Counted from the first letter of the stretch, positions 6,919 to 27,064 are shown. The stretch is 64,000 nt of DNA from Methanothrix soehngenii GP6 (GCF_000204415.1 NC_015416.1:62001-126000), one strand, 5' to 3'. Notes: generated by a model from the sequence alone, not told the origin. Program-made: numbers and translations.

Positions 6919-7875
6919 ATGCGCGGGTCATTAGAGAGATCGGATCGAGTGGCTCAGTGCGCAGTTCTCGCCATGCTCTTCGAGCTCTCCTCCAGTCCCA
7001 AGCCAGGTAATGTCGACCGCTGCCACGATTTTTCTGATATCCGGTTTCATCACTTCCTGACCAGCGCAGTCTCTGCTTATCCCGTCTTCAGGAAGGCGGC
7101 GAGTGGCGAAGGAAGCCCCGGGTCGCTCATACTGGAAGGGGTGGCAGCCTGGGGGGACTGGAACCTGAGAAGCAACACCCACTTCGGCTCGCTGGTGCTA
7201 CTGATCCCTCTCGCCCTGGCTGCAGGCCGGATGGCGGGTCATGAACGAGCAGGTCATGAACACGGTCAAGAAACGAAACAGGACGAGAGCCAGGAGAATG
7301 GACCGGATGATGGGGTGGATGATGGGGTGGATGATGGGCTTGAGGAGGAGTTGGCGAGAGTTCTGAGGAGCACCACCGTCCAGGATGCATTAGACTTCTA
7401 TCGGGCCTTCGATCTGGCGGGAGCAAGAGTAGTGCAGGTCGATGATTTCAGCCTGAAGGATCCGGACTGGGAAAGAAAGCTGATTGATGGCAACCAATCC
7501 CTTCTCGAACTGATGAGACTTTCCCTGGATCATGATATCGTTGCTCGCGAATGGGCCACGGACTTTGAGCGATCATTCCAGCTCGCCGGAAGGCTGCGGG
7601 AGATGGTATCCATATACGGCCTCAATGATGGCGTGGTCAGGACCTTCCTTGAAGCCCTGGCCGAGGTGCCAGACAGCCTTATATCCGCCAAGTTCGGAAG
7701 GGAAAGAGCGGTGGAAGTATCCCGTATGGCTGTAGATGCGCTCCTTGATTCCACCCTGAATAAGGCCAGGAAGATGGATTGCGAACTGAACAACAGGGAT
7801 ATGAATCCGGGCTCTACAGCAGACCTGATTGCGGCATCTTTATTTATCTCTCTTCTGAGGAGATTGCGGTTTTGA
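6919..7875 (+). CDS. Triphosphoribosyl-dephospho-CoA synthase family protein (CitG/MdcB-like)
   Basis: The 318-residue protein opens with SSSPKPGNVDR and HFLTSAVSAYPVF, continues with a SNTHFGSLVLLIPLALAAG motif, and has the all-alpha pattern of the CitG family, enzymes that transfer a phosphoribosyl group from ATP to dephospho-CoA. No citrate or malonate lyase genes are visible here, and archaeal members sit near methanogen cofactor genes, so a different substrate in cofactor synthesis is likely (inference). An acidic low-complexity insertion (about residues 108-145), built on a 12-base tandem repeat at 7306-7341, separates the conserved N- and C-terminal parts. It starts at the ATG at 6919, 6 bases after the marker-9 stop, and ends 2 bases before the best start of the DUF447 gene. 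Confidence 0.8.
   Translation: MRGSLERSDRVAQCAVLAMLFELSSSPKPGNVDRCHDFSDIRFHHFLTSAVSAYPVFRKAASGEGSPGSLILEGVAAWGDWNLRSNTHFGSLVLLIPLALAAGRMAGHERAGHEHGQETKQDESQENGPDDGVDDGVDDGLEEELARVLRSTTVQDALDFYRAFDLAGARVVQVDDFSLKDPDWERKLIDGNQSLLELMRLSLDHDIVAREWATDFERSFQLAGRLREMVSIYGLNDGVVRTFLEALAEVPDSLISAKFGRERAVEVSRMAVDALLDSTLNKARKMDCELNNRDMNPGSTADLIAASLFISLLRRLRF
7306..7341 (+). repeat. 12-bp tandem repeat inside the CitG-like gene
   Basis: Three units of gatgatggggtg (the third ends in ctt) encode DDGV-DDGV-DDGL. The repeat is in frame and falls in the variable loop of the CitG-like protein, so copy number could change without breaking the gene. Confidence 0.8.
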
Positions 7876-7877
7876 TC

Positions 7878-8471
7878 ATGTTCTATGGCAAAGAGGCTCT
7901 TGATGAGCTGGGAATACTGGAGGGCATAAACGAGATAATTGCCACCACAGAGACAGGTGGCAGAGTAAATGCTGCTCCTTTAGGAATTATCAGGAGTGAG
8001 GATAGCCTATATATCCGCTTATTTTTAGGAACTCACACCTATGAGAATATCCTCACCAGGAAATGGTTTGTGGCCAATGTCACCCACGATGCCTGGATCT
8101 TCGCGGAGACAGCTTTAGAGGACCTGCCCCAGGAGTACTTCACGCATTGCGATGGCCTGCCGATTCTAAAAGATACTGAGGCCTGGCTGCTATTCAAGTG
8201 CGATCCCTTCGCTTCGGATATCATAATCGCCAATATCGAGCCGGTAAAAGGGGAGCTATTGAGAAAGGACTTCCGGGCAGTCAACCGGGGAGCCAACCTG
8301 GTAGTAGAAGCAGCGGTAGCTGCCACCAGATATATGTCCCTTCGAAGCGATAATTATTTCGAGGAGTTGATGAAGACCCAGAGGATAATAAACCGCTGCG
8401 GCAACCCCAGAGAGAGAGAGGCGATGGAGAGGCTAATGGACCGGATCGATAACTTCGCCCATAAGAGATAG
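7878..8471 (+). CDS. DUF447 family protein (flavin-binding split-barrel type)
   Basis: The conserved family sequence begins at MFYGKEALDELGI, whose ATG is at 7878, two bases after the CitG-like stop. A longer reading from 7779 would overlap the upstream gene by almost 100 bases and adds non-family residues, so the 197-residue form is preferred. Motifs include GGRVNAAPLGI near the N-terminus and KWFVANVTHD, typical of FMN-binding split-barrel folds; structures of family members show bound flavin. The pairing of DUF447 with a CitG-like gene also occurs in bacteria that make tetrahydromethanopterin, which points to C1-cofactor metabolism. That function is inference. Confidence 0.8.
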   Translation: MFYGKEALDELGILEGINEIIATTETGGRVNAAPLGIIRSEDSLYIRLFLGTHTYENILTRKWFVANVTHDAWIFAETALEDLPQEYFTHCDGLPILKDTEAWLLFKCDPFASDIIIANIEPVKGELLRKDFRAVNRGANLVVEAAVAATRYMSLRSDNYFEELMKTQRIINRCGNPREREAMERLMDRIDNFAHKR

Positions 8472-8498
8472 GCGATTAATGATAGAAATTCGATTTCT

Positions 8499-9170
8499 AT
8501 GAGTACCCTTGAACGTTTGCCTGTAGGCTGTCAGAGCCTGGACCTCCTTCTGGGCGGAGGATTTGAGTCGGGCATAATCACTGAGCTCTATGGTGAATCG
8601 GGATCAGGGAAGAGCAACATCGTCCTGCAGCTGGCGGTGGCTGCGGTGGCCAGGGGCTTTCGGGTGATCTTCATCGATACGGAGGGCTTCTCCGCTGAGA
8701 GGTTCAAGCAGATTGCCGGACCTGGTGCTGCAGATATAGCGGCCAAGATAATGATCTTCGAGCCCATGAGCCTCGAGCAGCAGGCAATGGCCATCAGGGA
8801 GGCATCAAAGATCGCAGGAAGGGATCTGGGGCTGGTTATTCTTGATTCGGCGACGTCTCTTTACCGCATGCTCCTGGAGGCGGAGGACAGCCGGCCTGCC
8901 CGTCGAGCTCTGACCGTCCAGCTCTCGGAGCTGCAGGAGATCGCCCGGAGGCACAGGATTCCTGTGGTCATAACCAATCAGGTCTATACCGATATCGAGA
9001 GCAACTCCCTTCGGCCATTAGGCGGCACATATCTGGAGCACATGTGCAAAGCGATAATATTTCTAGAAAAGGCCGGAGAGGGCCTGCGGAGAGCACGGCT
9101 GATGAAGCACCGCTCCCTGCCGGAAAATAGAACTGCAGAGTTTCGTCTGACCGCCCGGGGCCTGGAGTGA
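8499..9170 (+). CDS. radB: DNA repair and recombination protein RadB
   Basis: The 223-residue protein is a RecA/RadA core without the N-terminal helix-hairpin-helix region found in RadA. Visible elements are LPVGCQSLDLLLGGG, Walker A GESGSGKSN (about residues 31-39), FIDTEGFS, and Walker B LGLVILDSAT around residue 110. These and the length fit RadB, the archaeal RadA paralogue thought to act as a recombination mediator at DNA breaks. It starts at the ATG at 8499, 28 bases after the DUF447 stop, and ends 18 bases from the convergent GNAT gene. Confidence 0.9.
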   Translation: MSTLERLPVGCQSLDLLLGGGFESGIITELYGESGSGKSNIVLQLAVAAVARGFRVIFIDTEGFSAERFKQIAGPGAADIAAKIMIFEPMSLEQQAMAIREASKIAGRDLGLVILDSATSLYRMLLEAEDSRPARRALTVQLSELQEIARRHRIPVVITNQVYTDIESNSLRPLGGTYLEHMCKAIIFLEKAGEGLRRARLMKHRSLPENRTAEFRLTARGLE

Positions 9171-9825: not shown

Positions 9826-10029
9826 TTGAGTGTTCTTCAGGCACACCGACGGGCCATGCGCTTTATGTACTTCGAGCTAGACTATGGCCGCGATGCCGCA
9901 GAAATCATGAAGTACAACAGGAACGGCCAGAATTCCCTGATGATGTTCAAGCTGGGAAGGAAAGGCAATTGGAGCAAAAGCTTCATAGTAATAATTACAG
10001 ACTCAATCTTTGAGGAGCTGGGGATTTGA
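9826..10029 (+). CDS. Small unrecognised ORF ending in an hsdM-like tail
   Basis: Sixty-seven residues from a TTG at 9826 (an ATG at 9856 would give 57). No family is recognised. Its last codons read FEELGI followed by TGA, and that 21-base end matches the end of the hsdM remnant at 11189-11209 at 18 of 21 positions. The stop overlaps the TTG start of the DUF1016 gene by four bases. It may be a decayed gene joined to an hsdM 3' end, retained as a translational lead-in. Whether a protein is made is uncertain. Confidence 0.35.
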   Translation: MSVLQAHRRAMRFMYFELDYGRDAAEIMKYNRNGQNSLMMFKLGRKGNWSKSFIVIITDSIFEELGI

Positions 10030-11129
10030 AGGACGAGGAGCGAAGTTATCGTGGGCAACTGCATGACGACGCATCTTTTCCGGTGGCAGCAGGACATAAA
10101 GAGATGCCAGAAAGCTATGCCGTGTTCATTGGTGAGATCAAAGAACGCATACAGAAGGAACGTTTGCGCGTGGTCATGTCCGCCAACTCCTCGATGGTGC
10201 TTCTTTATTGGGACATCGGGCGGACTATCATTGATCGTCAGGAAAAGGAAGGATGGGGGGCAAAGGTCATTGACCGGCTTTCAGCAGATCTGCGAGAGGC
10301 ATTTCCTGACATGCAGGGGCTATCGCCAAGAAATCTGAAATACATGCGCGCATTTGCTGCTGCGTGGCCCGACCGGGAGATTGTGCAAGAGGTGCTTGCA
10401 CAAATCACTTGGTATCATAATATTGCTCTTCTGGAAAAGGTAGCAGATTCACAAGTCCGCCTCTGGTATGCGAAGAAAGGACTGGAAGAAGGCTGGAGCC
10501 GCAGTGTACTGGTAATGCAGATCGAACGCAAGCTACATGACCGGCAGGGCAAGGCACTAAACAATTTTAACCTCACACTGCTGCCTGGCGATTCCGATAT
10601 GGCCGCTCAGATATTCAAAGATCCATATCTGTTTGACTTCCTTGGAACTGCCGATCCACGCCGGGAGCGAGAAGTGGAAAAAGGGCTGATAGACCACATC
10701 CAGCGCTTCCTCCTGGAGCTTGGAGAAGGATTTGCCTTTGTGGGAAGACAGGTTCACCTCGAATTCGCAACTAAGGACTATTACCTTGACCTATTATTTT
10801 ATCATCTGAAGTTGCGCTCCTACGTAGTGGTTGAATTGAAATCTGTTTCTTTTGATCCCGGATTTGTGGGAACTCTTAACATGTATCTTTCAGCGGTTGA
10901 TGATTTGCTCCGCCACCCAGATGATAAACCAAGCATTGGACTCCTGTTATGCCGCAAAGGAAGCAGGATCGAGGTCGAATACGCCCTGCGTGGAATCCAA
11001 AAGCCGATGGGTGTTGCAGGCTGGGAGACAAAGCTTGTGAAGACTCTGCCTGAAGAGCTGCAGAGCAAACTGCCAAGCGTGGCCGAGATCGAGGCTGAAC
11101 TGACCTGGGATGAAAATGAAGGGGCCTGA
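10026..11129 (+). CDS. DUF1016/YhcG-type PD-(D/E)XK nuclease domain protein
   Basis: The 367-residue protein has an N-terminal DUF1016_N region (about 30-180, VLLYWDIGRTIIDRQ and GLSPRNLKYMRAFA) and a C-terminal nuclease-like fold (about 200-345). There YYLDLLFYH supplies the Asp (around residue 252) and VVVELK the E-x-K pair (around 268-270), so the catalytic set looks intact. Family members are common passengers of Type I restriction loci. The TTG start at 10026 overlaps the preceding stop, which suggests coupled translation; the ATG at 10104 (MPESYAVF) is the alternative. It is followed by an hsdM 3' remnant and hsdS. A role in degrading or nicking foreign DNA is inference. Confidence 0.85.
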   Translation: MKDEERSYRGQLHDDASFPVAAGHKEMPESYAVFIGEIKERIQKERLRVVMSANSSMVLLYWDIGRTIIDRQEKEGWGAKVIDRLSADLREAFPDMQGLSPRNLKYMRAFAAAWPDREIVQEVLAQITWYHNIALLEKVADSQVRLWYAKKGLEEGWSRSVLVMQIERKLHDRQGKALNNFNLTLLPGDSDMAAQIFKDPYLFDFLGTADPRREREVEKGLIDHIQRFLLELGEGFAFVGRQVHLEFATKDYYLDLLFYHLKLRSYVVVELKSVSFDPGFVGTLNMYLSAVDDLLRHPDDKPSIGLLLCRKGSRIEVEYALRGIQKPMGVAGWETKLVKTLPEELQSKLPSVAEIEAELTWDENEGA

Positions 11130-11161
11130 CCTCATGGAAGAGGAACAATCCAGGGGGAGTG

Positions 11162-11209
11162 CGACCAGCTTCGAAGATCAAGAAATACTTCGAGGAGCTG
11201 GGGGTATGA
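11162..11209 (+). pseudogene. 3' remnant of hsdM (Type I methylase C-terminus)
   Basis: In the frame that ends with the TGA at 11207-11209 the sequence reads RPASKIKKYFEELGV and stop, a typical HsdM C-terminal helix. The stop overlaps the hsdS ATG at 11206 (ATGA), which is the usual hsdM/hsdS junction. The same frame hits a stop at 11111, so no methylase precedes it; the DUF1016 gene occupies that place instead. Identification rests on about 15 residues plus position. Confidence 0.55.
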
Positions 11210-12444
11210 GCTGGCCTCGCAAGAAGCTTGAGTTGCTTGCTGCTGATGAGCCTTACTCTTTTGTTGGGGGTCCGTTTGGCTCGAAACTTACTTCGCGTGA
11301 TTATTCTGATCAAGGTATTCCTGTGATTCGGGGATCCAATCTAAACAACGGTCGTTTCCTAGATATGAACGAATTCGTTTACGTCTCCGATTCAAAAGTC
11401 CGCAAGGACCTATCCGGCAATCTTGCTAAACCAGGTGACTTAGTTTTCACACAGCGTGGTACCCTTGGCCAAGTAGCAATCATTCCAAAAGAAGGTATAT
11501 CAGATCGATATGTTGTTTCCCAGAGTCAAATGAAGCTGACTGTTGACGACACCAAAGCAGACCAATTCTTTCTGTACTACTATTTTTCCAGCCGTGAAGT
11601 CATTGATAGGATTACGAATTTTACGTCCTCATCTGGTGTTCCCCATATCAATTTGACAGTGCTTCGCAATTTTGAGATTCCGGTTCCTCCACTTGAGATC
11701 CAGAAGTCAATCGCCTCCATCCTTTCCGCCTACGACGACCTGATCGAGAACAACCGGCGGCGCATACAGCTGCTGGAGCAGGCGGCGCGGCTGCTCTACA
11801 GGGAGTGGTTCGTGCACCTGCGCTTCCCCGGCCACGAGCACGTCAGGATTATGGACGGGGTGCCGGAGGGGTGGGAGAGAAAGACCGCATTTGATGAAAT
11901 GGATATTCTGAGCGGCGGGACACCGAAGACAGGCGTACCGGACTATTGGAATGGCGACATACCTTTCTTCACCCCAAAGGACTCCATGGATTATGCATAT
12001 GCTCTCGCCACGGAAAAGCGATTAACTGAGGAGGGTCTTCGCAACTGCAACAGCAAGTTATACCCCAAAGACACCATATTTATCACAGCACGGGGGACGG
12101 TGGGAAAGATCAATCTCGCCCAGACTGCAATGGCTATGAATCAATCGTGTTATGCTCTGATTGGGAAACCTCCCCTCAATCAATACTACCTATATTTTGC
12201 ACTCGTTGATGGAGTGGAACAATTCAGGAGTCGTGCGGTTGGAGCGGTGTTTGATGCAATCATTCGCGAGACATTCAATCAGATTCCATTCATTGTTCCC
12301 GATGACAAGATCATTCAATCATTCACAGAGCATGTAGTCCCAATAATTAAGCAGATAGATGTTCTATCGACAGAGATAAGAATGCTTACCCAAGCCCGCG
12401 ACTTGCTATTGCCACGCTTGATGAATGGAGAGATCAAGATATGA
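11206..12444 (+). CDS. hsdS: Type I restriction enzyme specificity subunit HsdS
   Basis: The start is the ATG at 11206 (MSWPRKKLELL). A longer frame from 11110 only translates the hsdM remnant out of frame. The 412-residue protein has two target-recognition domains, each followed by helical conserved regions: TRD1 to about residue 165, central coiled region with SILSAYDDLIENNRRR and LLYREWFVHLRFPG (about 165-215), TRD2, then a C-terminal helix ending LLLPRLMNGEIKI. HsdS selects the DNA sequence for the HsdM/HsdR complex. The central conserved region is strikingly GC-rich (about 11720-11880) while both TRDs are AT-richer, as expected when TRDs are exchanged by recombination. It overlaps the SIR2 gene by 4 bases. 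Confidence 0.9.
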   Translation: MSWPRKKLELLAADEPYSFVGGPFGSKLTSRDYSDQGIPVIRGSNLNNGRFLDMNEFVYVSDSKVRKDLSGNLAKPGDLVFTQRGTLGQVAIIPKEGISDRYVVSQSQMKLTVDDTKADQFFLYYYFSSREVIDRITNFTSSSGVPHINLTVLRNFEIPVPPLEIQKSIASILSAYDDLIENNRRRIQLLEQAARLLYREWFVHLRFPGHEHVRIMDGVPEGWERKTAFDEMDILSGGTPKTGVPDYWNGDIPFFTPKDSMDYAYALATEKRLTEEGLRNCNSKLYPKDTIFITARGTVGKINLAQTAMAMNQSCYALIGKPPLNQYYLYFALVDGVEQFRSRAVGAVFDAIIRETFNQIPFIVPDDKIIQSFTEHVVPIIKQIDVLSTEIRMLTQARDLLLPRLMNGEIKI

Positions 12445-13766
12445 GTAAGATAATGCAGATTGAGTCCAATAAAGCGTCAATAAAAAGTTCTTCAGAAGCA
12501 ACAGAGAAGCAGATACCCAAATCGACTGCTGGTATCTTGAAGTTCCTTGCCCCGTCTCAAATCAATTGGCAGGAGATTCGCCCAGACACAGCTAGAATTT
12601 CTGATAAAAATAAGAAAAATGAAATAGATGGTAAGGCCAAAGAAGCTAAAAGAACTCTTGACGAAATGCTTCTTTCTTCTCTCCAGATGTCCAATTTAGT
12701 GATATTATCTGGAAGTGGAACATCACTTGGAGATGTCGGTGGCCCTTCCATGAAGGATTTATGGAATTATGCGATAAATAATGAGTTAAATGGGCCTAAT
12801 GAGAAAGCCATAAAAATTATGAATAAGGTCAATTTTGTTGAGGAGAAGGAAGGTAAAAATATCGAAGCGTTCCTATCTCAATGTGAAGCCTATCTTCAGG
12901 TAAAAGAGGACAAGAAGGTACGTGATTTTGTCGAGCATTGCAAAAGAGTCATACTCGATAAATGCAGTGAATTCTTGAAAGATGAAAATGCAGGTGTATG
13001 GTTTGACGAAAAACTAGAAGGCCATTGCACCTTTCTGCACCGCCTTTCTCGTCGCAGGGTCCGTGATCCACGTTTAAAGGTATTTACAACCAATTACGAC
13101 TTATGTTTCGAACGGGCTGCAAGCTTACAAAGCCTTATTATAAATGATGGTTTTTCTTACACCCAGCCACGCATATTTGATCCTCGTTTTTTTGGATATG
13201 ATACAGTCAGACGCTCGCTAGCAGCCGCTGAACGTGGCGACTATTTAGAAGGTGTCTTTCATCTACTAAAGCTTCACGGATCGGTCAATTGGGCGCGAAG
13301 TAGTAATGGTAGGATCGAAGAGAAAAATAATCCGGAACCACCAGAAGCTTGCCTGATTTATCCTGCAAAAGGAAAGTATCAATTATCGTATATTCAGCCT
13401 CATCTAGAACTTATCTCCCAATATCTGACGAGTCTACGCGAGCCTAATACGTGCCTAATAGTCACGGGATTTGGATTCAATGATGATCACTTGTCTGAAC
13501 CCATCCTTGCGGCTGTAAAGATTAATCCCCGACTCCGTCTGATTGTAGTCGATTTCAAGGCAGAGGATTCTATTGAAAAACCATCTGAAGAGACAAGCAG
13601 ATATTGGAAAGAGTTTTCCACTCTCGCTAAAAACGGGGAAGACATTTGGTTTATCAATGCTTCGTTCAAGGATTTCGCCTCTCTTATCCCTGACCTCCGA
13701 TCACTCACTACTGCGCAACAGCTGGAGAAAGTGATCAAGAGAAGTTTAGGAGGCGCAAATGAGTGA
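12441..13766 (+). CDS. SIR2-domain defence protein (SIR2-HerA system)
   Basis: 441 residues. After an N-terminal Lys/Ser/Glu-rich extension of about 80 residues, the SIR2-like fold begins: LVILSGSGTSL (about 86-96, replacing the GAGxS nucleotide loop), VFTTNYDLCFE (about 214-224), LLKLHGSVNW (about 275-284) and LIVTGFGFNDDHL (about 339-351). These are the motifs of the SIR2 branch used in antiviral defence, whose members consume NAD+ once triggered rather than deacetylate proteins. The next gene is HerA, giving the known SIR2-HerA (Nezha-type) pair, in which a SIR2 ring docks on a HerA hexamer. Start ATG overlaps hsdS stop (ATGA); it overlaps HerA by 8 bases. Base composition is AT-richer than hsdR, consistent with separate acquisition. 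Activity here is inferred from family. Confidence 0.85.
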   Translation: MSKIMQIESNKASIKSSSEATEKQIPKSTAGILKFLAPSQINWQEIRPDTARISDKNKKNEIDGKAKEAKRTLDEMLLSSLQMSNLVILSGSGTSLGDVGGPSMKDLWNYAINNELNGPNEKAIKIMNKVNFVEEKEGKNIEAFLSQCEAYLQVKEDKKVRDFVEHCKRVILDKCSEFLKDENAGVWFDEKLEGHCTFLHRLSRRRVRDPRLKVFTTNYDLCFERAASLQSLIINDGFSYTQPRIFDPRFFGYDTVRRSLAAAERGDYLEGVFHLLKLHGSVNWARSSNGRIEEKNNPEPPEACLIYPAKGKYQLSYIQPHLELISQYLTSLREPNTCLIVTGFGFNDDHLSEPILAAVKINPRLRLIVVDFKAEDSIEKPSEETSRYWKEFSTLAKNGEDIWFINASFKDFASLIPDLRSLTTAQQLEKVIKRSLGGANE

Positions 13767-15501
13767 TTTAGATGAACGCCTCCGAAGACTTGCTCAAAAA
13801 GGCATCCTACGCCCGGAGCTGCGCGTGGGTGTAGTGTCATTTGTCAAGTCCTATGTCGCTCATATAAATCTTCGTGATGCTGGAAACCCAAGCGGGACAC
13901 ATTTCGAGGGTGGGCGCTACGGGAAAGGTGAAGTAGGTGAGTTTATTTTAGTTGAGGGACAGCGAAGCATTCTCTTGGGAAGGATTATGGAAGTGCGGCT
14001 GCCTGACGGGGAACGCCAAATCATTGGTCAGGACTATGCTGGATCTAATGAGTTGGATGCAATCGGCCATATTCAACTGCTAGGATCTATTTCAATGGTA
14101 GATTTTCACTTTACTGCAGGTGTCGATACTTATCCGCGTCTTGGGGACCGAGTTTATGCAGCCCCACATCAACTTATTGCCTTGATCCCCTATTTAATGA
14201 TAAGAACGGGGGATGGCGATACTCCTGTTCAGCTGGAGTTGGGCGCTGTGGGAGATGCGAATGAAAGCAAAGTCAGCATCACGCCGGAAAAGCTATTTGG
14301 TCGTCATTGTGCCATCCTCGGCGCCACAGGTGGCGGTAAGAGTTGGACAACGGCACGCATAATTGAAGAATGCATCAAACACAAGGGTAAGATCATCCTC
14401 TTGGATGCAACTGGGGAATATGGAGAGTTTAGTGGTGATGAAGTAATGCATTGCTATTTGGGAATGCCTGTGTATAAGCCAGAGACTTCTATTGCCTGTT
14501 CTTTACCACCAACCAGCTTTCAGGAATCCGATTTTATGGCATTATTCCTGCCTTCCGGCAAAGTCCAGGGTCCAAAATTGAGGGAAGCAATCCGGAGTCT
14601 TCGCCTGGCAATGCTATGTCCTGAATTAGCGGAAGGGGGGCTAATTTTTAAGGCTAATAAATCCAAGATCGATATCAACCAAAGGCTATCTGAAGAAGCT
14701 ATTGGCGAGAGAGTAGACAATCCAAACCAGGGGTTTGATGTGACTCTTCTTGCAAGGCAAATCGAGCAAGAATGTGTCTATCCAACCGAGTTTGGAAAAA
14801 ATTCGCAGAAATGGGGAAATTATGACAGTAGTAGTTATTCATATTGTCTTTCGCTAATAATCCGAATAAATGCCGTGATTTCATCGGCTGCCTATGAATG
14901 CGTATTTGGAAGAAGTACTGATAAGGCAATCACGGATGCAATCTCCGAATTTCTTAGAGAAGACCAAAGACTCCTTTGTATTTGTTTGAGCGGGATTCAG
15001 CACGAATTCAATGCAAGAGAGATCATTGCAAATACGATCGGCCGTTATCTCTTATACCTTGCGCGAAAAGGTGACTTCAAAGCAAATCCTGCGGTGGTTG
15101 TCGTGGATGAAGCTCATCATTTTCTTGGTCGTCAGATCGGATCTGAAGATATGTTCTCGCGATTGGATGCCTTTGAGCTGATCGCCAAGGAAGGGCGAAA
15201 ATTCGGTTTGTGTATTTGCCTGGCTACACAACGACCTCGTGATATTACGGAAGGCGTCCTAAGTCAAATGGGAACTTTGGTCGTCCACCGACTTACAAAT
15301 GATAGAGATCGAGAAATAGTAGAGAGGGCATGTGGAGAAATTGATCTCTCAGCATCCTCATTTTTGCCGAATCTCCAGCCTGGTGAAGCAGCTATCATTG
15401 GTATTGATTTCCCCTTTCCGCTTGCAATCCGGATAAACAAGCCATCTTATCGGCCACGGTCCGACGGACCAAATTATCAGAAGCACTGGAAGGCAGAATG
15501 A
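13759..15501 (+). CDS. HerA-type DNA translocase/ATPase (SIR2-HerA partner)
   Basis: 580 residues. An N-terminal beta-barrel HAS domain (to about 170) is followed by the FtsK/HerA-type ATPase: Walker A ILGATGGGKSWTTARI (about 185-200), then LLDATGEYGEFS, a long helical insertion, Walker B AVVVVDEAHHF (about 445-455), the sensor CLATQRPRDI and the RLTNDRDREIV segment. HerA proteins form hexamers; in SIR2-HerA defence the ATPase partners the NADase and can act on DNA. It starts 8 bases inside the SIR2 gene and its TGA overlaps the start of an hsdR 5' remnant. No NurA nuclease is nearby, which argues against the housekeeping end-resection role and for defence. Confidence 0.87.
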   Translation: MSDLDERLRRLAQKGILRPELRVGVVSFVKSYVAHINLRDAGNPSGTHFEGGRYGKGEVGEFILVEGQRSILLGRIMEVRLPDGERQIIGQDYAGSNELDAIGHIQLLGSISMVDFHFTAGVDTYPRLGDRVYAAPHQLIALIPYLMIRTGDGDTPVQLELGAVGDANESKVSITPEKLFGRHCAILGATGGGKSWTTARIIEECIKHKGKIILLDATGEYGEFSGDEVMHCYLGMPVYKPETSIACSLPPTSFQESDFMALFLPSGKVQGPKLREAIRSLRLAMLCPELAEGGLIFKANKSKIDINQRLSEEAIGERVDNPNQGFDVTLLARQIEQECVYPTEFGKNSQKWGNYDSSSYSYCLSLIIRINAVISSAAYECVFGRSTDKAITDAISEFLREDQRLLCICLSGIQHEFNAREIIANTIGRYLLYLARKGDFKANPAVVVVDEAHHFLGRQIGSEDMFSRLDAFELIAKEGRKFGLCICLATQRPRDITEGVLSQMGTLVVHRLTNDRDREIVERACGEIDLSASSFLPNLQPGEAAIIGIDFPFPLAIRINKPSYRPRSDGPNYQKHWKAE

Positions 15502-15611
15502 GCATCTTTACTGAAGACACCCTCGTCCAGCAAACCACCGCCGATTATCTGGAGCTTCGGCTCGGCTGGAAGTCGTTCAGTGCAGATAACAAACAGGAAG
15601 TAAAGACATGA
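15498..15611 (+). pseudogene. 5' fragment of an hsdR gene (duplicate start)
   Basis: An ATG at 15498 opens a 37-codon frame, MSIFTEDTLVQQTTADYLE..., matching the start of the full hsdR at 17710 (MSTYTEDTLVQQTTADYLE...). The first 72 bases agree at 63 positions, with most differences silent or conservative, so the fragment comes from a related but different hsdR allele. Beyond codon 25 the similarity fades, and the frame ends at a TGA at 15609-15611. Both ends keep four-base ATGA overlaps: with the HerA stop and with the start of the DUF262 gene. It may now serve only as a coupling leader. Confidence 0.85.
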
Positions 15612-17710
15612 AAGCTACCGAAGCCAAGCTACTAGATTTTCTCAAGAAGTCACCGCAGTTTGTCATCCCGATATACCAGCGCACTTACAGCTGGACAGAG
15701 CGCGAGTGCCTCCAGCTCTGGGACGATATTCTGCGCACTGGCAGCAACGATGCCATTGCAGCGCACTTCATCGGCTCCATAGTCTATATCCAGAAAGGTC
15801 TCTACCAGATCTCCGGTATGTCGCCATTGCTAGTTATCGACGGTCAGCAACGCTTGACAACCTTGATGCTGATCATCGAGGCGTTGGCTCGAAATCTTGG
15901 TGAAACCGAGCCTGTGGACGGCTTCTCTGCTAAGAAGCTGCGTAACTATTACCTCCTTAATCCTCTAGAAGATGGGGAGCGTGCTTTCAAATTGCTGCTT
16001 GGGCAGACAGACAAGCAGAGTCTGCTCGCCCTTCTGCAGCAGAAACCTCTGCCGACAGAACCTTCTTTGCGCATCCAAGACAACTTTGCTTTCTTCGAGG
16101 AACACGTGCGTGCATTGGGCTTAGACCTTGCACCCCTGTGTAATGGACTTGCCAAGCTTGTCGTTGTGGACATTGCACTTAGCCGTGATAAGGACAACCC
16201 GCAGCTCATCTTCGAGAGCATGAACTCCACCGGTCGCGAACTGAGCCAGGCAGACCTCATTCGCAACTTCATCCTGATGGGTCTGGAGCCTGCTGACCAG
16301 ACCCGGCTCTACCTGGACCACTGGAGGCCAATGGAAGTCGCCTTCGGACAGGAGGCCTATGGCATCCAATTTGATAGCTTCATGCGTCACTATTTGACAT
16401 TCAAGACTGGCGAGATCCCTAAAGTTAAGGCCGTTTATGAGGCCTTCAAGGACCACGCTCGCGACCCAAAAGTGCAGTCCGCTGGCGTGGATTCACTGGT
16501 CAACGATATCCATACCTTCGCGGACTACTTTTGTGCTATGGCGCTCGGCAAAGAAAAGGACAAGCATCTAGCTATTGCCTTCCAAGATTTGCGTGAGCTT
16601 AAGGTGGATGTCGCTTATCCCTTCCTGCTAGAACTCTACCAAGACTATGCCAATGGCATTTTGCCCAAGTCAGATTTCATTCAGGCGGTGCGTCTTGTTG
16701 AGGCATATGTTTTCCGCCGCGTTGTGTGTGCCATCCCCACCAACTCTCTCAACAAGACGTTTGCCACATTTGGTCGAGCATTGAAGAAGGACCATTACCT
16801 AGAGAGCATCCAGGCGCATCTATTGAACTTGCCGTCCTATCGACGCCTCCCAGGTGATGAGGAGTTCAAGCGCGAACTAATGGTGCGGGATCTCTATAAC
16901 TTCCGCAGCCGATCTTACTGGCTGCGACGCCTGGAGAACCACGGACGAAATGAGCGCGTGCCAGTCGATGAATATACTATTGAGCACATCATGCCGCAGA
17001 ATGAGAATCTCCCTGTCAAATGGCGAGAGTCCCTCGGTCCGGATTGTCAGCGGGTCTGGGAAACATGGCTGCACACTTTAGGCAACCTTACACTGACCGG
17101 ATATAACTCCCGGTATAGCGACCACCCTTTTATTGAGAAGCGCGACATGGAGGGCGGTTTCAAAGAAAGCCCATTGCATCTTAATAAGGAGTTGGGTACG
17201 CTTGATGGCTGGAACGAGACAAAGATCAAACAGCGGGCGGAACGCTTAGCATTTCTGGCATGCGATGTATGGAGAGCACCAAATATATCTTCTGAGGTTT
17301 TGGCGAGCTATCGTCCGAGTGTCCCGAAGCCAGAAGTCTATACTATCGATGACCACATCCATCTCGCTGAGAACAGCCCTGTCCGGCCACTCTTCGATGC
17401 GTTCCGCAAGGAAGTGCTCGCGCTTGATCCATGCGTGACTGAGGAGTTTCTCAAATTGTATGTGGCCTACAAGGCCGAGACGAACTTTGTGGATGTAGTG
17501 CCTCAGGCAAAACGGCTTCGACTTTCATTGAACCTTCAATTTCATGAATTAAGCGATCCGAAAGGGCTAGCTAAAGATGTAACAAACATCGGACGGTGGG
17601 GAAATGGTGATGTGGAAGTCGGCCTCGTTAAGCTAGAGGAGTTGCCATACGTAATGGGCTTAGTACGCCAAGCCTTTGAGAAGCAGATAGGAAATGGATT
17701 CGAGCAATAA
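15608..17710 (+). CDS. GmrSD-like DUF262/DUF1524 restriction protein with C-terminal DUF5655
   Basis: 700 residues in three parts. The N-terminal DUF262 domain carries FVIPIYQRTYSW (about 18-29) and DGQQRLTTL (about 77-85), the ParB-like nucleotide-binding motif. DUF1524, an HNH nuclease, is seen at YTIEHIMPQN (about 456-465) with the downstream HTLGNLTLTGYNSRYSD and PFIEKR. The C-terminal 130 residues (from about HLAENSPVRPLFDAF) resemble DUF5655. DUF262-DUF1524 fusions are Type IV, modification-dependent restriction enzymes (GmrSD, BrxU) that attack phage DNA with modified bases, using NTP hydrolysis. Start overlaps the hsdR remnant stop (ATGA); its TAA shares a base with the hsdR ATG. Catalytic motifs look intact. 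Confidence 0.87.
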   Translation: MKATEAKLLDFLKKSPQFVIPIYQRTYSWTERECLQLWDDILRTGSNDAIAAHFIGSIVYIQKGLYQISGMSPLLVIDGQQRLTTLMLIIEALARNLGETEPVDGFSAKKLRNYYLLNPLEDGERAFKLLLGQTDKQSLLALLQQKPLPTEPSLRIQDNFAFFEEHVRALGLDLAPLCNGLAKLVVVDIALSRDKDNPQLIFESMNSTGRELSQADLIRNFILMGLEPADQTRLYLDHWRPMEVAFGQEAYGIQFDSFMRHYLTFKTGEIPKVKAVYEAFKDHARDPKVQSAGVDSLVNDIHTFADYFCAMALGKEKDKHLAIAFQDLRELKVDVAYPFLLELYQDYANGILPKSDFIQAVRLVEAYVFRRVVCAIPTNSLNKTFATFGRALKKDHYLESIQAHLLNLPSYRRLPGDEEFKRELMVRDLYNFRSRSYWLRRLENHGRNERVPVDEYTIEHIMPQNENLPVKWRESLGPDCQRVWETWLHTLGNLTLTGYNSRYSDHPFIEKRDMEGGFKESPLHLNKELGTLDGWNETKIKQRAERLAFLACDVWRAPNISSEVLASYRPSVPKPEVYTIDDHIHLAENSPVRPLFDAFRKEVLALDPCVTEEFLKLYVAYKAETNFVDVVPQAKRLRLSLNLQFHELSDPKGLAKDVTNIGRWGNGDVEVGLVKLEELPYVMGLVRQAFEKQIGNGFEQ

Positions 17711-20700
17711 TGAGCACCTACACCGAAGACACCCTCGTCCAGCAGACCACCGCCGATTACCTGGAGCAGCAGCTCGGCTGGGAATCGGTCTATGCTTATA
17801 ACAGCGAGGATTTCGGGCCAAAAAGCCTTCTGGGCCGGGCTTCCGATCGGGAGGTGGTGCTGACCCGAATCCTGCGCCAGAAGCTGGCAGAGCTGAACCC
17901 CGGCCTGCCCGGCGCAGCATATGACGACGCTGTGCGCCAGATCACCGCCACCATCGCCTCCCAGACTCTCGCATCCACTAACCGGGAGAAGTACGGCCAG
18001 ATAAGAGAGGGCGTGCAGGTAGCATTCCGCAACGATGAAGGCGAGCTGGTGAAAGAGCGGATGCAGCTCTTCGATTTCAACGAGCCGGGCAACAACCATT
18101 TTTTAGCTGTACGAGAGCTATGGATACGTGGCGACCTCTACCGTCGCCGGGCGGATATCGTCGGCTTCGTAAACGGCCTGCCGCTCTTGTTCATCGAGTG
18201 CAAGAACATCCACAAGAACCTCAAAGCCGCCTTCGAGAAAAACTTCTCCGACTACCTGGACACCATCCCTCACATCTTCCATCATAACGCCATTGTGATG
18301 TTCGGCAACGGCCAGCAGGCAAAGATCGGCACCATCACCAGCAAATGGGAGCACTTCCACGAGTGGAAACGCCTGGCTGAAGAGGAGCCGGGAGCTGTGG
18401 ACATGGAAACTTTGCTCAAAGGCATCTGCGACAAAGGCAACTTCCTGGATCTACTGGAAAACTTCATACTCTTTGACGAGTCCAGGGGCGAACCTAAGAA
18501 GATCCTGGCCAAAAATCACCAGTTCCTCGGAGTCAACCGGGCCATTGAAGCGGTCTGTAAGCGCAAAGAGCTGCATGGAAAGCTGGGGGTCTTCTGGCAC
18601 ACCCAGGGCGCAGGAAAGAGCTATTCCATGGTGATGTTCACCCGCAAGGTCCATCGCAAACTCGGCGGCAACTTCACCTTTCTGGTGCTCACCGATCGAG
18701 ACGACCTGGATACTCAGATCTACAAGACCTTCGCCGGCTGCGGCGTGGTTGACAACGATCAGGTTCAATGCCGCGCTTCCAGCGGCAGCCACCTGAGCCG
18801 ACTGCTGGCCGAGCACAAGGCCTTCATCTTCTCACTGATACAGAAATTTAATCAAAAAATTGACCCCGGCGAGGGATATACCCAAAGAGACGACATCATC
18901 GTAATCACCGATGAGGCGCACCGAACTCAGTATGGCACCCTGGCCGAAAATATGCGCAACGCTCTGCCCCATGCCAGCTTCATCGGTTTCACAGGCACCC
19001 CGCTCTTCAAAGAAGATCAGATCACCCGAAAGGTATTCGGCGATTATGTTTCTACCTATGACTTCCAGCGGGCAGTGGAGGACAAGGCCACCGTTCCACT
19101 ATACTACGATGCCCGCGGCGAGAAGCTGGGCGTGGCCATCGGCGACCTCAACGAGCGCGTCGCAGAAAAACTAGAGGAGTTTGAGATAGACGATATCAAC
19201 GTCGAGCAGCGTCTGGAAAAGGAGCTCAAGCGTGAATATCATATTATCACCGCGGAGAAGCGGCTGGATCAGGTAGCTCGGGACTTCGTGCAGCACTATT
19301 CCACTGCCTGGGAAAATGGGAAGTCGATGATGGTCTGCATCGACAAGATAACCTGTGTGCGGATGTATAACCTGATCAACAGTCACTGGGAAGAACGGAT
19401 AGCTGAGCTGGAGGCAGGACTCTCTTCTACCTCAGATGATCAGGAGGAGATCTATCTTAAGCGTCAGATAGAATGGATGCGCGAGACTCGGGCGGCTGTA
19501 GTGGTTAGCGAAGAGCAGGGTGAGGTCGATAAGTTCCGCAAGAGCGGCCTGGACATAACTCCCCATCGCAGACTCATCAAGGAAGGCATCGACCTGTCTG
19601 AGTCAATGCGCAGCAAGCCCCAGTTCCATAACATGCAGCGGATTAGTCTTGACGACGCCTTCAAAACCGATGAACATCCGTTTCGCATCGCCATAGTCTG
19701 CGCCATGTGGCTGACAGGATTTGATGTGCCGAGCCTCTCTACTCTCTACCTGGACAAGCCTCTGAAGGCCCATACTTTGATGCAGGCCATAGCTCGCGCC
19801 AACCGCGTGAACGAGGGCAAGAACAACGGCTTGATCGTCGACTACTGCGGCATCCTAAAGCACTTGCGTCGAGCGCTGGCAACCTTTGCAGGTCCCCGCC
19901 CAGATGATGGTGAACCGGGCGGTGAGATCGATCCGGCCAGGCCAGAGGAGGAGCTACTGTCCGATCTGGCCGAGGCGATCAGCTTTGTGCGGGCCTTCCT
20001 CGATGAGCGGAATGCTCCTCTGGATGACATAATCCATAAGACAGGCTTTGAGCGCAATGCCGCTATTGCGGCCTGCAAAGAGGCGGCCAACGAAAATGAT
20101 GAGACGCGCAAGCGCTTTGAAATCATGTGCCGGGAGGTCTTCAAAAAATTCAGAGCTTGCATCACCCTTCAGGACATAAACGCCTATCGTGATGATCGGG
20201 ATGCGGTCAACATCGTTTACAAGAGCCTCCAGCAGGATCGAGAAAAGGCTGACATCACAGACATCATGAGGCAACTCCAACATCTAGTGGATGAAGCAAT
20301 CGATGTCCAATCTGACACAGCGACAAAGCCTGGGGAGCCGTACGATATCAGTAAAATCGACTTTGTCCGGCTCAAACAAGAGTTCGAGAGATACAAGAAC
20401 ACAGTGGTTCAGAACTTGCGTCAGGCAGTGGAGATCCGATTGCAGAGACTGCTACAACAGAATCCCTTGCGCACAGACTTCCAGCAACACTACGAGAAGA
20501 TCGTTGCCGAGTATAACCGCGAGAAGGACCGGGCAACAATTGAACAGACCTTCGAGGCATTGCTCAAGCTCGTCCAAGGACTCGACGAAGAAGAAAGCCG
20601 AGCAGTACGAGAGGGGCTCGATGAAGAATCTTTGGCCATCTTCGACCTGCTGAAAAAGCCAGATCTTAAGGGCGTTGATATCAAGCGCATCAAAAAAGTT

Positions 20701-20946
20701 GCAGCTGAATTGTTGAAAACGCTTAAGGAGGAAAAGCTCCGAGTTGACCAATGGCGCGATAAGGAAGCGACCCGTGATGCTGTGCGAGTGACTATTCATA
20801 ACTTTTTATGGAATGAAGATATAGGCCTTCCCGTTGGCCTGTATTCAGAAGCTGATGTGGCACAAAGGGCTGAAGATGTATTCAGACACATCTTTTGGGC
20901 TTATCCCACATTGCCATCTCCTTACTATAGTGCATCGGTGGCATAG
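17710..20946 (+). CDS. hsdR: Type I restriction endonuclease subunit HsdR
   Basis: 1078 residues, normal for HsdR. The nuclease domain (about 1-230) has the PD-(D/E)XK set RADIVGFVNGLPLLFIECKN near residues 146-166. The SF2 translocase follows, with Walker A HTQGAGKSYSM (about 297-307), LVLTDRDDLDTQ, ITDEAHRTQYG (DEAH, about 400-410), FTGTPLF, and IVCAMWLTGFDVPSLSTLYLD and QAIARANRVN in the second helicase lobe. The C-terminal 250 residues are helical and would bind the methylase core. HsdR pulls unmodified DNA and cuts it at a distance, but needs HsdM2HsdS; no hsdM is in this island, so activity depends on an hsdM elsewhere. It is the last gene of the coupled run. Confidence 0.93.
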   Translation: MSTYTEDTLVQQTTADYLEQQLGWESVYAYNSEDFGPKSLLGRASDREVVLTRILRQKLAELNPGLPGAAYDDAVRQITATIASQTLASTNREKYGQIREGVQVAFRNDEGELVKERMQLFDFNEPGNNHFLAVRELWIRGDLYRRRADIVGFVNGLPLLFIECKNIHKNLKAAFEKNFSDYLDTIPHIFHHNAIVMFGNGQQAKIGTITSKWEHFHEWKRLAEEEPGAVDMETLLKGICDKGNFLDLLENFILFDESRGEPKKILAKNHQFLGVNRAIEAVCKRKELHGKLGVFWHTQGAGKSYSMVMFTRKVHRKLGGNFTFLVLTDRDDLDTQIYKTFAGCGVVDNDQVQCRASSGSHLSRLLAEHKAFIFSLIQKFNQKIDPGEGYTQRDDIIVITDEAHRTQYGTLAENMRNALPHASFIGFTGTPLFKEDQITRKVFGDYVSTYDFQRAVEDKATVPLYYDARGEKLGVAIGDLNERVAEKLEEFEIDDINVEQRLEKELKREYHIITAEKRLDQVARDFVQHYSTAWENGKSMMVCIDKITCVRMYNLINSHWEERIAELEAGLSSTSDDQEEIYLKRQIEWMRETRAAVVVSEEQGEVDKFRKSGLDITPHRRLIKEGIDLSESMRSKPQFHNMQRISLDDAFKTDEHPFRIAIVCAMWLTGFDVPSLSTLYLDKPLKAHTLMQAIARANRVNEGKNNGLIVDYCGILKHLRRALATFAGPRPDDGEPGGEIDPARPEEELLSDLAEAISFVRAFLDERNAPLDDIIHKTGFERNAAIAACKEAANENDETRKRFEIMCREVFKKFRACITLQDINAYRDDRDAVNIVYKSLQQDREKADITDIMRQLQHLVDEAIDVQSDTATKPGEPYDISKIDFVRLKQEFERYKNTVVQNLRQAVEIRLQRLLQQNPLRTDFQQHYEKIVAEYNREKDRATIEQTFEALLKLVQGLDEEESRAVREGLDEESLAIFDLLKKPDLKGVDIKRIKKVAAELLKTLKEEKLRVDQWRDKEATRDAVRVTIHNFLWNEDIGLPVGLYSEADVAQRAEDVFRHIFWAYPTLPSPYYSASVA

Positions 20947-24498: not shown

Positions 24499-24922
24499 TC
24501 ATATCTTCATTCCAAGGCTCTTGAGTATATATAGCAATCCCCCATCAGGTACAGGCAAATTAAAATATGTCATGACAAATTCAAATGTTTCTCCAACAGC
24601 TTGCATTTTTACTCTATCGACCATGTCGCCCATCGTTCTTGATTTTGAGCCATCTTTAGGTGGCGGATTATCTATTTCCCATAAGAGAATTGCAGTCCAT
24701 ACTGAAAAAACCATTTGAATAAATCTTTCAATTGAGTGTTTATCTCTTAATTGGTAATCTTTAAATCCTAATTTTTGATTTGCCTCTCTATGAGCTGTTT
24801 CTATATCCCATCTGTCCTCGTAAATTGAGAGTATTTCTTTCAATGAAAGCGATCCATTAGTGCTGATTATATATTTTGTCGTGCTATCTTTTTTTCTCTT
24901 GGAGATAACAAGCTTAACTTCG
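24499..24922 (-). pseudogene. IS4-like transposase, C-terminal part (split by IS3 element)
   Basis: This is the 3' part of the transposase, from GEVKLVISKRKK to the stop. It holds the RWDIETAHREANQKLGF segment, which supplies the catalytic Glu (residue 322 of the rebuilt protein). Joined to the part at 26223-27064, with one CCTA copy removed, the frame is continuous across the junction (IIDKVG-EVKLVI) and totals 421 residues. So the break is recent and caused only by the IS3 insertion. Confidence 0.85.
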
Positions 24923-24956
24923 CCTATGGACTGCACCCCTGATAATGGACAAATAG

Positions 24957-25835
24957 TTAAGCAATGGTATTTAAGGCAACCTCCACTTCGAACTGAACCG
25001 GAGATCTGTAATTGAGAGCTGAATGCAGCCTCTTATGGTTGTACACATTTTCAATAAAGTTGCATATGTTCCTGAATGCATCTTCAAATGTCTCATATTC
25101 ATTGAGATATACCTCCTCGACCTTCAGTGTTTTTATAAAACTCTCAGCAAAAGCATTGTCATAAGGATTTCCTTTTCTCGACATGCTGATCTGGATGTCA
25201 TGCGCCTTAAGACAGTCTACATAATCCTTGGACGCATACTGAACGCCTTGATCAGAATGATGAATAAGACCCTCAAGGGATTCCTTGGAACGGTTCTTCA
25301 ATGCCTTTGCCAGAGCACTCATGGCCAGATCGCTTCTTATGCTCCTGCTCAGCTCCCACCCGATGCACTTTCTGCTGTAGAGATCCAGGATAACCGCGAG
25401 AAAGATATGCTCGTGCTGCAGCTGGACATAAGTGATATCAGAAGCCCATGCCTGGTTCAGTCCCGTGATTTCCCTGCCTTTTAGAAGGTTAGGATAGACC
25501 GGCAGACCATGAGTGGAATCGGTTGTTACCGGCTTGAACTTCTTCTTATAGCAAAGCAACTTCTCCTGGCGCATGAGCCTCAGCACGCGCTTATGGTTGA
25601 CCGCATAGCCGCGATTTTGAAGTTCTGCTGTAATTCTCCTGTACCCGTAATAAGGAAACTCCAAAGCTATCTCTTGAATCTGGTTAACCAGATCCGAAGA
25701 TTCGCTATTCTCCGCAGTGAACTTTTCGGACCGCTTCAACCACTCGTAGTAACCGCTGCGACTCACATCCAGCGCCAAGCAGGAGTGAGATATTGGCAAC
25801 AGAAGGCCATCTGATTGAGCTTCCTGAATGATCAT
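24957..25835 (-). CDS. IS3-family transposase OrfB (DDE integrase domain)
   Basis: 292 residues. An N-terminal HTH_21 region (SRSGYYEWLKR, then YYGYRRITAELQNRGYAVNHKRVLRLM) is followed by the retroviral-integrase-type rve core. The three catalytic acidic residues are all visible: Asp in WASDITYVQL, Asp in HHSDQGVQYAS, and Glu in NPYDNAFAESFIKTLK. It overlaps orfA by 4 bases (ATGA), so translation is probably coupled, rather than relying only on the frameshift used by many IS3 elements. It appears intact. Confidence 0.93.
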   Translation of the reverse strand: MIIQEAQSDGLLLPISHSCLALDVSRSGYYEWLKRSEKFTAENSESSDLVNQIQEIALEFPYYGYRRITAELQNRGYAVNHKRVLRLMRQEKLLCYKKKFKPVTTDSTHGLPVYPNLLKGREITGLNQAWASDITYVQLQHEHIFLAVILDLYSRKCIGWELSRSIRSDLAMSALAKALKNRSKESLEGLIHHSDQGVQYASKDYVDCLKAHDIQISMSRKGNPYDNAFAESFIKTLKVEEVYLNEYETFEDAFRNICNFIENVYNHKRLHSALNYRSPVQFEVEVALNTIA

Positions 25836-26161
25836 ATGTCGTCCCTCAACATCGGCTTTCGTCTCTCCTCGCGGACCTTCTTCTGGGTCATGGCGAAGGC
25901 TTTTTTTAAAAGGTCAATTTCAGCATGAGCCTGGCCCAGAAGTCTCTCCAATTCTGCAATCTTCGCCTGATCTTTGTACTTGTTTCCGTTACCCATGAAT
26001 GCTTTTTCGGGATTTTCAGCCAGCTCTACCTTCCATCGGCAAGGAAGACTCGGATGGATGCCATATTCGCGGGCGATCTGAGCAAGTGGCTTGCCTGCCT
26101 CAAGTTCGGCTAATACTGATATCTTGAAGTCCCGGTCGTAACGCCGCCTGGTCTTCTTCAT
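25832..26161 (-). CDS. IS3-family transposase OrfA (HTH)
   Basis: About 109 residues from the ATG at 26161 (MKKTRRRYDRDFK); an ATG at 26185 would add eight residues. The HTH_8/IS3 OrfA pattern is clear: FKISVLAELEAGKPLAQIAREYGIHPSLPCRW, followed by a leucine-zipper-like helix (KIAELERLLGQAHAEIDLLKKAF) for multimerisation. It binds the element's ends and works with OrfB. Confidence 0.9.
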   Translation of the reverse strand: MKKTRRRYDRDFKISVLAELEAGKPLAQIAREYGIHPSLPCRWKVELAENPEKAFMGNGNKYKDQAKIAELERLLGQAHAEIDLLKKAFAMTQKKVREERRKPMLRDDI

Positions 26162-26222
26162 GCACTTCCCTCCATGAGTCGGCATTGCTTAACTTTTTGT
26201 CCACTCGGAGGGGTTCACTCCA

Positions 26223-27064
26223 CCTACCTTGTCTATGATTACCTTCTTTTCAAATGCATAATAGGTCTTCTTTTTTCCACGAACACTAACTGTTGTCTTA
26301 ATAAAAAATTTATCTTCAATTTGATTCGCTAGATCTCTGACTTGGAAATACATATCCCTATTTATTCCGACTTTCTTATCAGACTTGATTTGGCATACGA
26401 TATTATGCCCTAGCTTAAGGCACTTGCTAAATAGATCAGAAGAAAACCACCAGCTATCGAAAACGATATAAAGATCGATGCTTTTTGGTACAACTAATGG
26501 TTTGATGATCTCTTCAAAGGCAATCTCCATTTTTGTTTTAAAATTCTCATTTTCGTCATCATTCTTAATATACATCTTAGCTTTATGTGGAATAAATAGT
26601 CCTTTTGATTGGACAACAGAGGTAACGAAATTGTTACCCCAAATATAGGCTTCTTTACTATGATCGTAAAATTTGCCCACACCATCTGTTTGGTTTCCTT
26701 CTTTCTCATTGTATGTATCATCAATTATTAATAATAGTTTATCGTTCTCTTTCAAACATAAACTATCGATGAAAAGATCCACCTTGCGTTGTGCAACTTC
26801 ATTTTCATCCCAATTCGCATCGCTAAAGAACCAATTATATGAAGAACGTGATTTTTTCCCTTTGCTGCAATCTGCCATAGTATCACAAAGGTTAGAAACG
26901 GTCTTGGATTTATCACATACGCTCAACGCGCCACACAGATCTCGAAATGATCCGTAACTCGGTTTTGTGAAGAGATCCCTAAACTTATCTAAAAACGGCT
27001 CCAATTGCAACGGTACCTTTACTATTTTGATCATTTTACTCCCGAAGAAGGGATTCTGATCCAA
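26223..27064 (-). pseudogene. IS4-like transposase, N-terminal part (split by IS3 element)
   Basis: The 5' part of the interrupted transposase. It includes the first catalytic Asp in LLLIIDDTYNEKEG (about 115-116) and the second in LYIVFDSWWFSSD (about 203). Reading on into the inserted IS3 element adds a short artificial tail ending SEWTKS. The gene would start at the ATG at 27064 or at 27034. Together with 24499-24922 it forms a complete DDE set. Confidence 0.85.

Follow-up and report, generated by a model that had tools for sequence, protein, structure and literature searches.

Defence genes that lie inside restriction operons are a rich source of new antiviral systems, and several examples are known from Type I loci. 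TgvAB consists of GmrSD-type Type IV genes that lie within a five-gene Type I operon on VPI-2 of Vibrio cholerae and are active against phages with modified DNA (PMC11411939). In the coli RptR island, DarTG2 occupies the hsdS/hsdR junction, which was termed a potential recombination hotspot (PMC12255303). RloF, a DUF262 protein, has been placed between hsdS and hsdR, with GmrSD genes enriched near Type I genes (PMC4619093); the R-linked ORFs of Campylobacter jejuni, RloF among them, were described by Miller et al. (2005, cited in PMC4619093), and PrrC is a passenger in the ecoprrI Type I locus (PMC12707154). The principle has been called 'guilt-by-embedding' (Payne et al., 2024 preprint, cited in PMC12255303 and PMC12988326), and several of the PDC families are enriched in archaea (PMC12988326). 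The accessible portions of this literature hold no account of how embedded defences enter beyond the potential recombination hotspot, and a literature search combining hsdR remnants, defence islands, Type I systems and recombination, which did not cover the Payne preprint, found none.

The locus described here is of this known kind, the embedding of defence modules in Type I operons being well documented. It lies in the window, by which we mean the whole 64,000-nt stretch of the Methanothrix soehngenii GP6 chromosome that was analysed, and comprises six frames between 10026 and 20946 (+) encoding, in order, a DUF1016 nuclease, HsdS, SIR2, HerA, a fusion of a GmrSD-type enzyme with DUF5655, and HsdR, all with intact catalytic motifs and with Pfam matches far past the cut-off. 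The composite is no sequencing accident, because a 6,136-base metagenome contig of Methanosaeta sp. PtaU1.Bin112 (L004) is 99.98% identical to the window from hsdS to hsdR. All passengers share the strand of the hsd genes. The first (10026–11129, +), at the one-time hsdM/hsdS junction, encodes a protein with DUF1016_N and a YhcG PD-(D/E)XK domain (PF06250, 1.9e-63; PF17761, 6.7e-45; ELK motif) that corresponds to PADLOC PDC-S02 (7e-143) and had no match in the PDB. The specificity gene hsdS (11206–12444, +; PF01420, 1.6e-41; ORF open from 11110) has two stretches matching PF01420, the target recognition domains. Between hsdS and hsdR lie a predicted SIR2-like NADase (12441–13766, +; PF13289; PADLOC SIR2, 3.7e-85; PDB 8j4u_A, 1.1e-21 over 306 residues), in which the putative NADase core residues are present (TNYD 217, KLHG 277), and, adjoining it, a HerA ATPase (13759–15501, +; PF01935, 2e-22; PADLOC HerA, 8.5e-157; chains of the SIR2/HerA complex in the PDB) with Walker A (GATGGGKS 188) and Walker B (VVVVDEA 446) motifs. 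The third passenger (15608–17710, +) is a putative GmrSD-type enzyme fused to DUF5655 (PF03235, 1e-33; PF07510, 4e-25; PF18899, 1.8e-15), combining DUF262 with the (I/V)DGQQR motif (DGQQRLT 78) and a DUF1524 HNH domain (HIMP 460, GNLTL 492). The operon ends with a full-length hsdR (17710–20946, +; PF04313, PF18766, PF22679 and PF11867; PDB EcoR124 HsdR, 6e-29) encoding both the PD-(D/E)XK nuclease and the SF2 motor (motifs ECK, GAGKS and DEAH). Compared with the 82%-identical HsdR of G001, a genome of another genus, its dN/dS is 0.07, indicating purifying selection.

With TgvAB the GP6 operon shares GmrSD-type genes inside a Type I operon, in an RloF-like position between hsdS and hsdR, but the Type I system around TgvAB is complete and active, two proteins take the place of the one fusion, SIR2–HerA is absent, and the accessible portion of that account reports no hsd fragments such as those at the GP6 seams (PMC11411939). 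The RptR island likewise has a separate, independent module for defence at that junction, but its available description gives one passenger module, a complete Type I system and the regulator RptR, and no evidence of seams. RloF and PrrC are passengers in Type I loci, as in GP6, and have been known since at least 2005, RloF resembling the GP6 GmrSD protein as a DUF262 protein between hsdS and hsdR; both are single passengers, however, and a missing hsdM or hsd fragments go unmentioned in the accessible parts of the sources. The general principle of guilt-by-embedding is common to GP6, where DUF1016 matches PDC-S02 and the GmrSD protein matches the PADLOC models Orf5 and HEC-06. Each chain of the SIR2–HerA complex solved from antiphage defence (PDB 8j4u and related entries) is matched by a GP6 protein; unlike the setting of the solved complex, the GP6 pair lies inside an hsd operon. 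A preliminary description of this DNA had presented the ordered chain as unfamiliar; embedding between hsdS and hsdR is already documented (TgvAB, DarTG2, RloF, PrrC), and as far as could be checked the new parts are a stack that lacks hsdM and the directional gene-end seams described below. We consider it likely that this composite operon for defence grew by the illegitimate joining of Type I operon parts.

The same description counted seven same-strand frames, joined by overlaps of 1–8 nt, in a Type I restriction operon. Six of the frames stand, but the remaining one (9826–10029, +) is a pseudo-frame, a chimera without a match in Pfam or PADLOC that we ruled out as a genuine gene; HsdS and HsdR are present, but hsdM is missing, so that the Type I operon is incomplete. 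Residues 10–46 of the pseudo-frame resemble part of an unrelated chromosomal protein of ~430 aa. Its last six codons, FEELGI before the stop, are the 3' end of the deleted hsdM: FEELGI is the HsdM C-terminus of L091, L097 and L098, relatives with hsdM ahead of DUF1016, and the stop/start overlap with DUF1016 is 4 nt, as it is in them. Because the frame ends in this way, we conclude that hsdM has been deleted and its tail alone left. The R2M2S1 Type I complex requires HsdM, so no complete Type I complex can be encoded by the GP6 locus, and its Type I arm is probably inactive unless helped in trans.

Such help could come if an HsdM encoded elsewhere served both HsdS proteins of the genome, the remote hsdM–hsdS pair in turn using the HsdR of the operon. 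A PF02384 search of the GP6 genome (contigs of 3,008,626 bases and 18 kb) returned one full HsdM, at C1:635318-636271, ~0.5 Mb off and beside its own HsdS, and the HSDR_N_2 profile (PF13588) had no match in the same genome. There is thus one complete HsdM without an adjacent HsdR and one complete HsdR without an adjacent HsdM, and a full-length HsdR with intact motifs, a point against the joining model, could mean use of HsdM in trans. However, the remote HsdM is 33% identical over 313 residues to HsdM_L098, of the family that accompanies GP6-type HsdR, and the two HsdS are 27% identical over the aligned part; subunits are not generally known to be exchanged between Type I families. A Type I system kept alive in trans is therefore unlikely. 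At the remote locus (L027:3801-10342, C1 ~630.3–636.8 kb), genes for an OLD-type ATPase/TOPRIM protein and a UvrD helicase, a Gabija-like pair, come after hsdM and hsdS; no hsdR was found beside them, making this a second hsd locus short of a different subunit.

Damaged hsdM genes were also seen in relatives. In G001 (L091:2776-4278) an in-frame deletion of residues 138–339 removes the catalytic motifs, and in G011 (L097:5504-6553) there are four in-frame deletions, one of which takes out NPPF; both frames are open downstream, into hsdS or DUF1016, and may reflect selection for translational coupling. We dropped the idea that every genome with a GP6-type HsdR lacks a working HsdM, as hsdM of G017 is nearly intact; its split is due to a frameshift of one base, possibly an error of the metagenome assembly.

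Three of the joins inside the GP6 operon are the short overlaps previously claimed (HsdS–SIR2, 4 nt; SIR2–HerA, 8 nt; GmrSD–HsdR, 1 nt), but the HerA–GmrSD and DUF1016–HsdS joins hold hsd fragments. The 106-nt gap between HerA and GmrSD is bridged by hsdR' (15498–15611, +), a truncated hsdR 5' end in which the first ~27–34 codons are followed by unrelated ones. It shares 69 of 81 nt with the beginning of hsdR at 17710 (tblastn E 4e-12 to 7e-10) and overlaps both HerA and GmrSD by 4 nt. Since stop/start overlaps continue through hsdR', translation could still run from HerA to GmrSD. Because hsdR' abuts HerA with a normal ATGA overlap, SIR2–HerA was probably in place ahead of GmrSD, which would have come with a second hsdR. 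DUF1016 and the HsdS ORF opening at 11110 nominally overlap by 20 nt, and at this seam lies hsdM' (11147–11209, +), an hsdM 3'-end fragment of ~20 codons and a stop that is 60% identical in amino acids to residues 685–704 of HsdM_L098 (53 nt at 87%, E 9e-9). To judge from the L091 and L097 junctions, the true hsdS start is most likely ATG 11206, in a 4-nt overlap with the hsdM' stop, and for this reason DUF1016 and hsdS would be separated by a gap holding hsdM'. The entry of DUF1016 is an event apart from the entries of SIR2–HerA and GmrSD.

How common such occupation is was assessed by a census of the best 80 of ~155 listed HSDR_N matches, in rank order, from 238 genomes of the class Methanosarcinia, together with ~20 Methanotrichaceae loci; hsdS and hsdM were located by iterated profiles and a junction was called occupied when the gap exceeded 300 nt. 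In this sample, which is non-random, enters some genomes twice, includes one doubtful hsdS (L126) and draws on many metagenomic assemblies, 70 of 92 hsdS/hsdR junctions (76%) and 50 of 83 hsdM/hsdS junctions (60%) were occupied. Embedding is, on these counts, the rule in Methanosarcinia. Another possibility is ordinary accumulation of a defence island with no preference for hsd junctions, as might be supposed because many bacteria, and also L005, a locus of Methanothrix MAG 280, have SIR2–HerA away from hsd operons; against this stand the occupancy of both junctions across a class-wide sample and the directional hsd-end seams, and with the census and the seam controls largely refuting it we regard it as extremely unlikely.

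Junctions were then searched with the gene ends of the same operon; L124 and L126 were discarded, as their hsdR' fragments align only to a frame extended upstream of hsdR, and the 'hsdS' fragments of L126 look like a RhuM-type gene. Of the 70 archaeal hsdS/hsdR junctions that are occupied, 14 had seams, all lying on the coding strand: hsdR 5' fragments in L092, L104, L138, L145, L150, L177, L183 and the window, and hsdS 3' fragments in L131, L136, L138, L150, L156, L162, L174, L177 and L197. In the hsdM/hsdS junctions, hsdM 3' fragments occur in L097, L147, L153 and the window. At L131 the hsdS 3' fragment (7158-7211) lies directly upstream of a GmrSD gene (7267-9057), an independent instance of GmrSD behind an hsd seam. 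As a control for placement, HsdR N-terminal fragments numbered 8 in 150 kb of hsdS/hsdR junctions, against none in 619 kb upstream of hsdS and none in 79 kb downstream of hsdR. When the junctions were searched with full-length proteins, seven of the eight HsdR fragments belonged to the initial 10% of HsdR and all eight HsdS fragments to the final 16% of HsdS, and the opposite strand gave none. The remaining HsdR fragment, a C-terminal piece in L148, is compatible with the remains of an adjacent operon. The other 56 occupied hsdS/hsdR junctions had no recognisable seam, and other entry routes must therefore exist, whether clean joins or seams that have decayed or fall below detection.

These results confirm the observation of the preliminary description in part and support its interpretation in part. 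Its view of hsd junctions as preferred sites is supported by the census of Methanosarcinia, with occupancy far above that of a scattered arrangement, and start/stop overlaps are mostly preserved. Placement exactly at gene junctions was not upheld, with broken hsd ends at two of the three GP6 passenger entries as well as at the archaeal seams counted above, and recombination between Type I operons, with subsequent selection, accounts better for what was taken as a deliberate layout.

In L138, L150 and L177 an hsdR 5' fragment runs straight into an hsdS 3' fragment, and two of these three fusions are in frame; such a fusion is the joint to be expected if an operon hsdS-P1-hsdR were joined with an operon hsdS-P2-hsdR. 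Such a fusion needs an hsdS on the incoming side, and the partner must therefore have been another Type I operon. The seams also bear on whether a dedicated transposon- or integron-like mobile element carries the passengers as cassettes, targeting hsd ends and restoring them. Repeated entry at the same junctions and re-created gene ends do resemble target-restoring islands; however, the seams vary in gene, side and length (16 to ~80 codons), no integrase or transposase is among the annotated genes of the GP6 operon, and the fused seams call for hsdS on the incoming side. We find such an element very unlikely, and the evidence instead suggests that Type I operons swap passengers among themselves.

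The passenger set is freely swapped among relatives, as a comparison of junctions makes plain. G001 has a bare hsdM–hsdS–hsdR operon with ATGA joins; contig C67 of G017 has the end of DUF1016, hsdM', hsdS, a gene for a 561-aa protein and hsdR in that order, its hsdR start being identical to that of GP6 at 80 of 81 nt; and in GP6 the same hsdS/hsdR interval holds SIR2–HerA–hsdR'–GmrSD. The 561-aa passenger (L094:411-2093, −) has no Pfam or PADLOC match and is a candidate new defence gene. In L097, hsdM' follows DUF1016 as it does in GP6. SIR2–HerA recurs between hsdS and hsdR in L009, L016, L021 and L023, and in L005 (4206-11746) a pair 76% and 82% identical to that of the window adjoins a 1385-aa Eco57I-type methylase/nuclease protein, with no hsd genes recognised nearby. 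Since it is present both within hsd operons and without recognised hsd genes, SIR2–HerA is a portable module.

It might be argued that the GP6 genes form a functional system of layers, designed so that Type I and Type IV restriction cooperate with abortive infection through NAD depletion. The single strand, the tight coupling, the intact motifs of HsdR, SIR2, HerA and GmrSD and the purifying selection on HsdR between genera would all suit such a system, and TgvAB was proposed as a complementary pairing of Type I and GmrSD-like activities (PMC11411939). Nevertheless, hsdM is deleted with no close HsdM elsewhere in the genome, leaving R2M2S1 short of a subunit, passengers are exchanged freely among relatives, and SIR2–HerA is also found alone in L005. 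Cooperation by design is quite unlikely, and the layering with Type I restriction that was first suggested is doubtful. SIR2–HerA, predicted to deplete NAD on infection, GmrSD, predicted to cleave modified DNA, and the DUF1016 nuclease probably act independently of one another as modules.

We propose, in preference, that the GP6 locus began as hsdM–hsdS–hsdR with 4-nt overlaps, an order still present in a related genus, that DUF1016 entered at hsdM/hsdS and SIR2–HerA, later GmrSD–DUF5655, at hsdS/hsdR, and that a deletion spared no more of hsdM than its last ~6 codons. The operon would have grown as parts of two related Type I operons with different passengers were joined illegitimately and one set of hsd genes was kept, the partner being either an incoming copy or one of neighbouring tandem copies that collapsed by deletion. 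A joint inside an hsd gene would leave an hsdR 5' or an hsdS or hsdM 3' fragment at the seam, and selection would have retained products with intact hsdS and hsdR and with open, coupled frames. The seams appear to fit homology-facilitated illegitimate recombination (HFIR), a process described previously (PMC3240628), and tandem-operon collapse equally well. Collapsed tandem Type I operons are the apparent origin of L098:3178-9295, where several DUF1016 copies are followed by an HsdR C-terminal fragment (its last 79 residues), directly by an hsdM 3' fragment encoding the HsdM C-terminus, and by another DUF1016. Two bacterial loci form a before/after pair: L023 has a HerA–hsdR joint, and L009 (5696-18901, Nitrosomonadaceae MAG) an insert at the same joint, giving hsdM–hsdS–SIR2–HerA–hsdR'–DUF3800–hsdR'–DarT–macro–RhuM–hsdR with two serial hsdR seams; HerA is 93% and HsdR 92% identical between the two, and their DNA is near-identical at the HerA/hsdR joint. 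One L009 hsdR' carries a stop, so coupling through seams is not always kept. No donor operon was found for the GmrSD half of the GP6 locus, so that the reconstruction of the GP6 join stops short of single bases; it also weighs against the joining model that many of the loci are metagenome assemblies. What was seen directly is the gene content, the seams with their recurrence and orientation, and the lack of hsdM; the recombination route, the sequence of events, the activity of the passengers and the inactivity of Type I are inferred.

Stacks with broken restriction-gene ends at their seams, in many relatives, suggest an origin in the joining of parts of similar operons. As a generalization, which we favour with some reserve, Type I operons would grow by the joining of parts, with hsd genes as shared ends between which passengers are stacked and seams as the record of their order, and restriction itself could be lost while the stack persists. 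What is annotated as 'Type I restriction' may then be a mere frame for other defences, and gene-end seams, which can be searched for, record directly each acquisition and the direction it took.

Two further features of the surroundings were considered and set aside: a GNAT–carB flank as a conserved insertion site, as carB was not found near GNAT among the relatives checked, and a link to plasmids, for which there was one weak HsdS match only. Near the operon, downstream of carB, positions 24499–27064 of the window carry transposase genes or fragments (ISC1217-like DDE and an rve integrase core).
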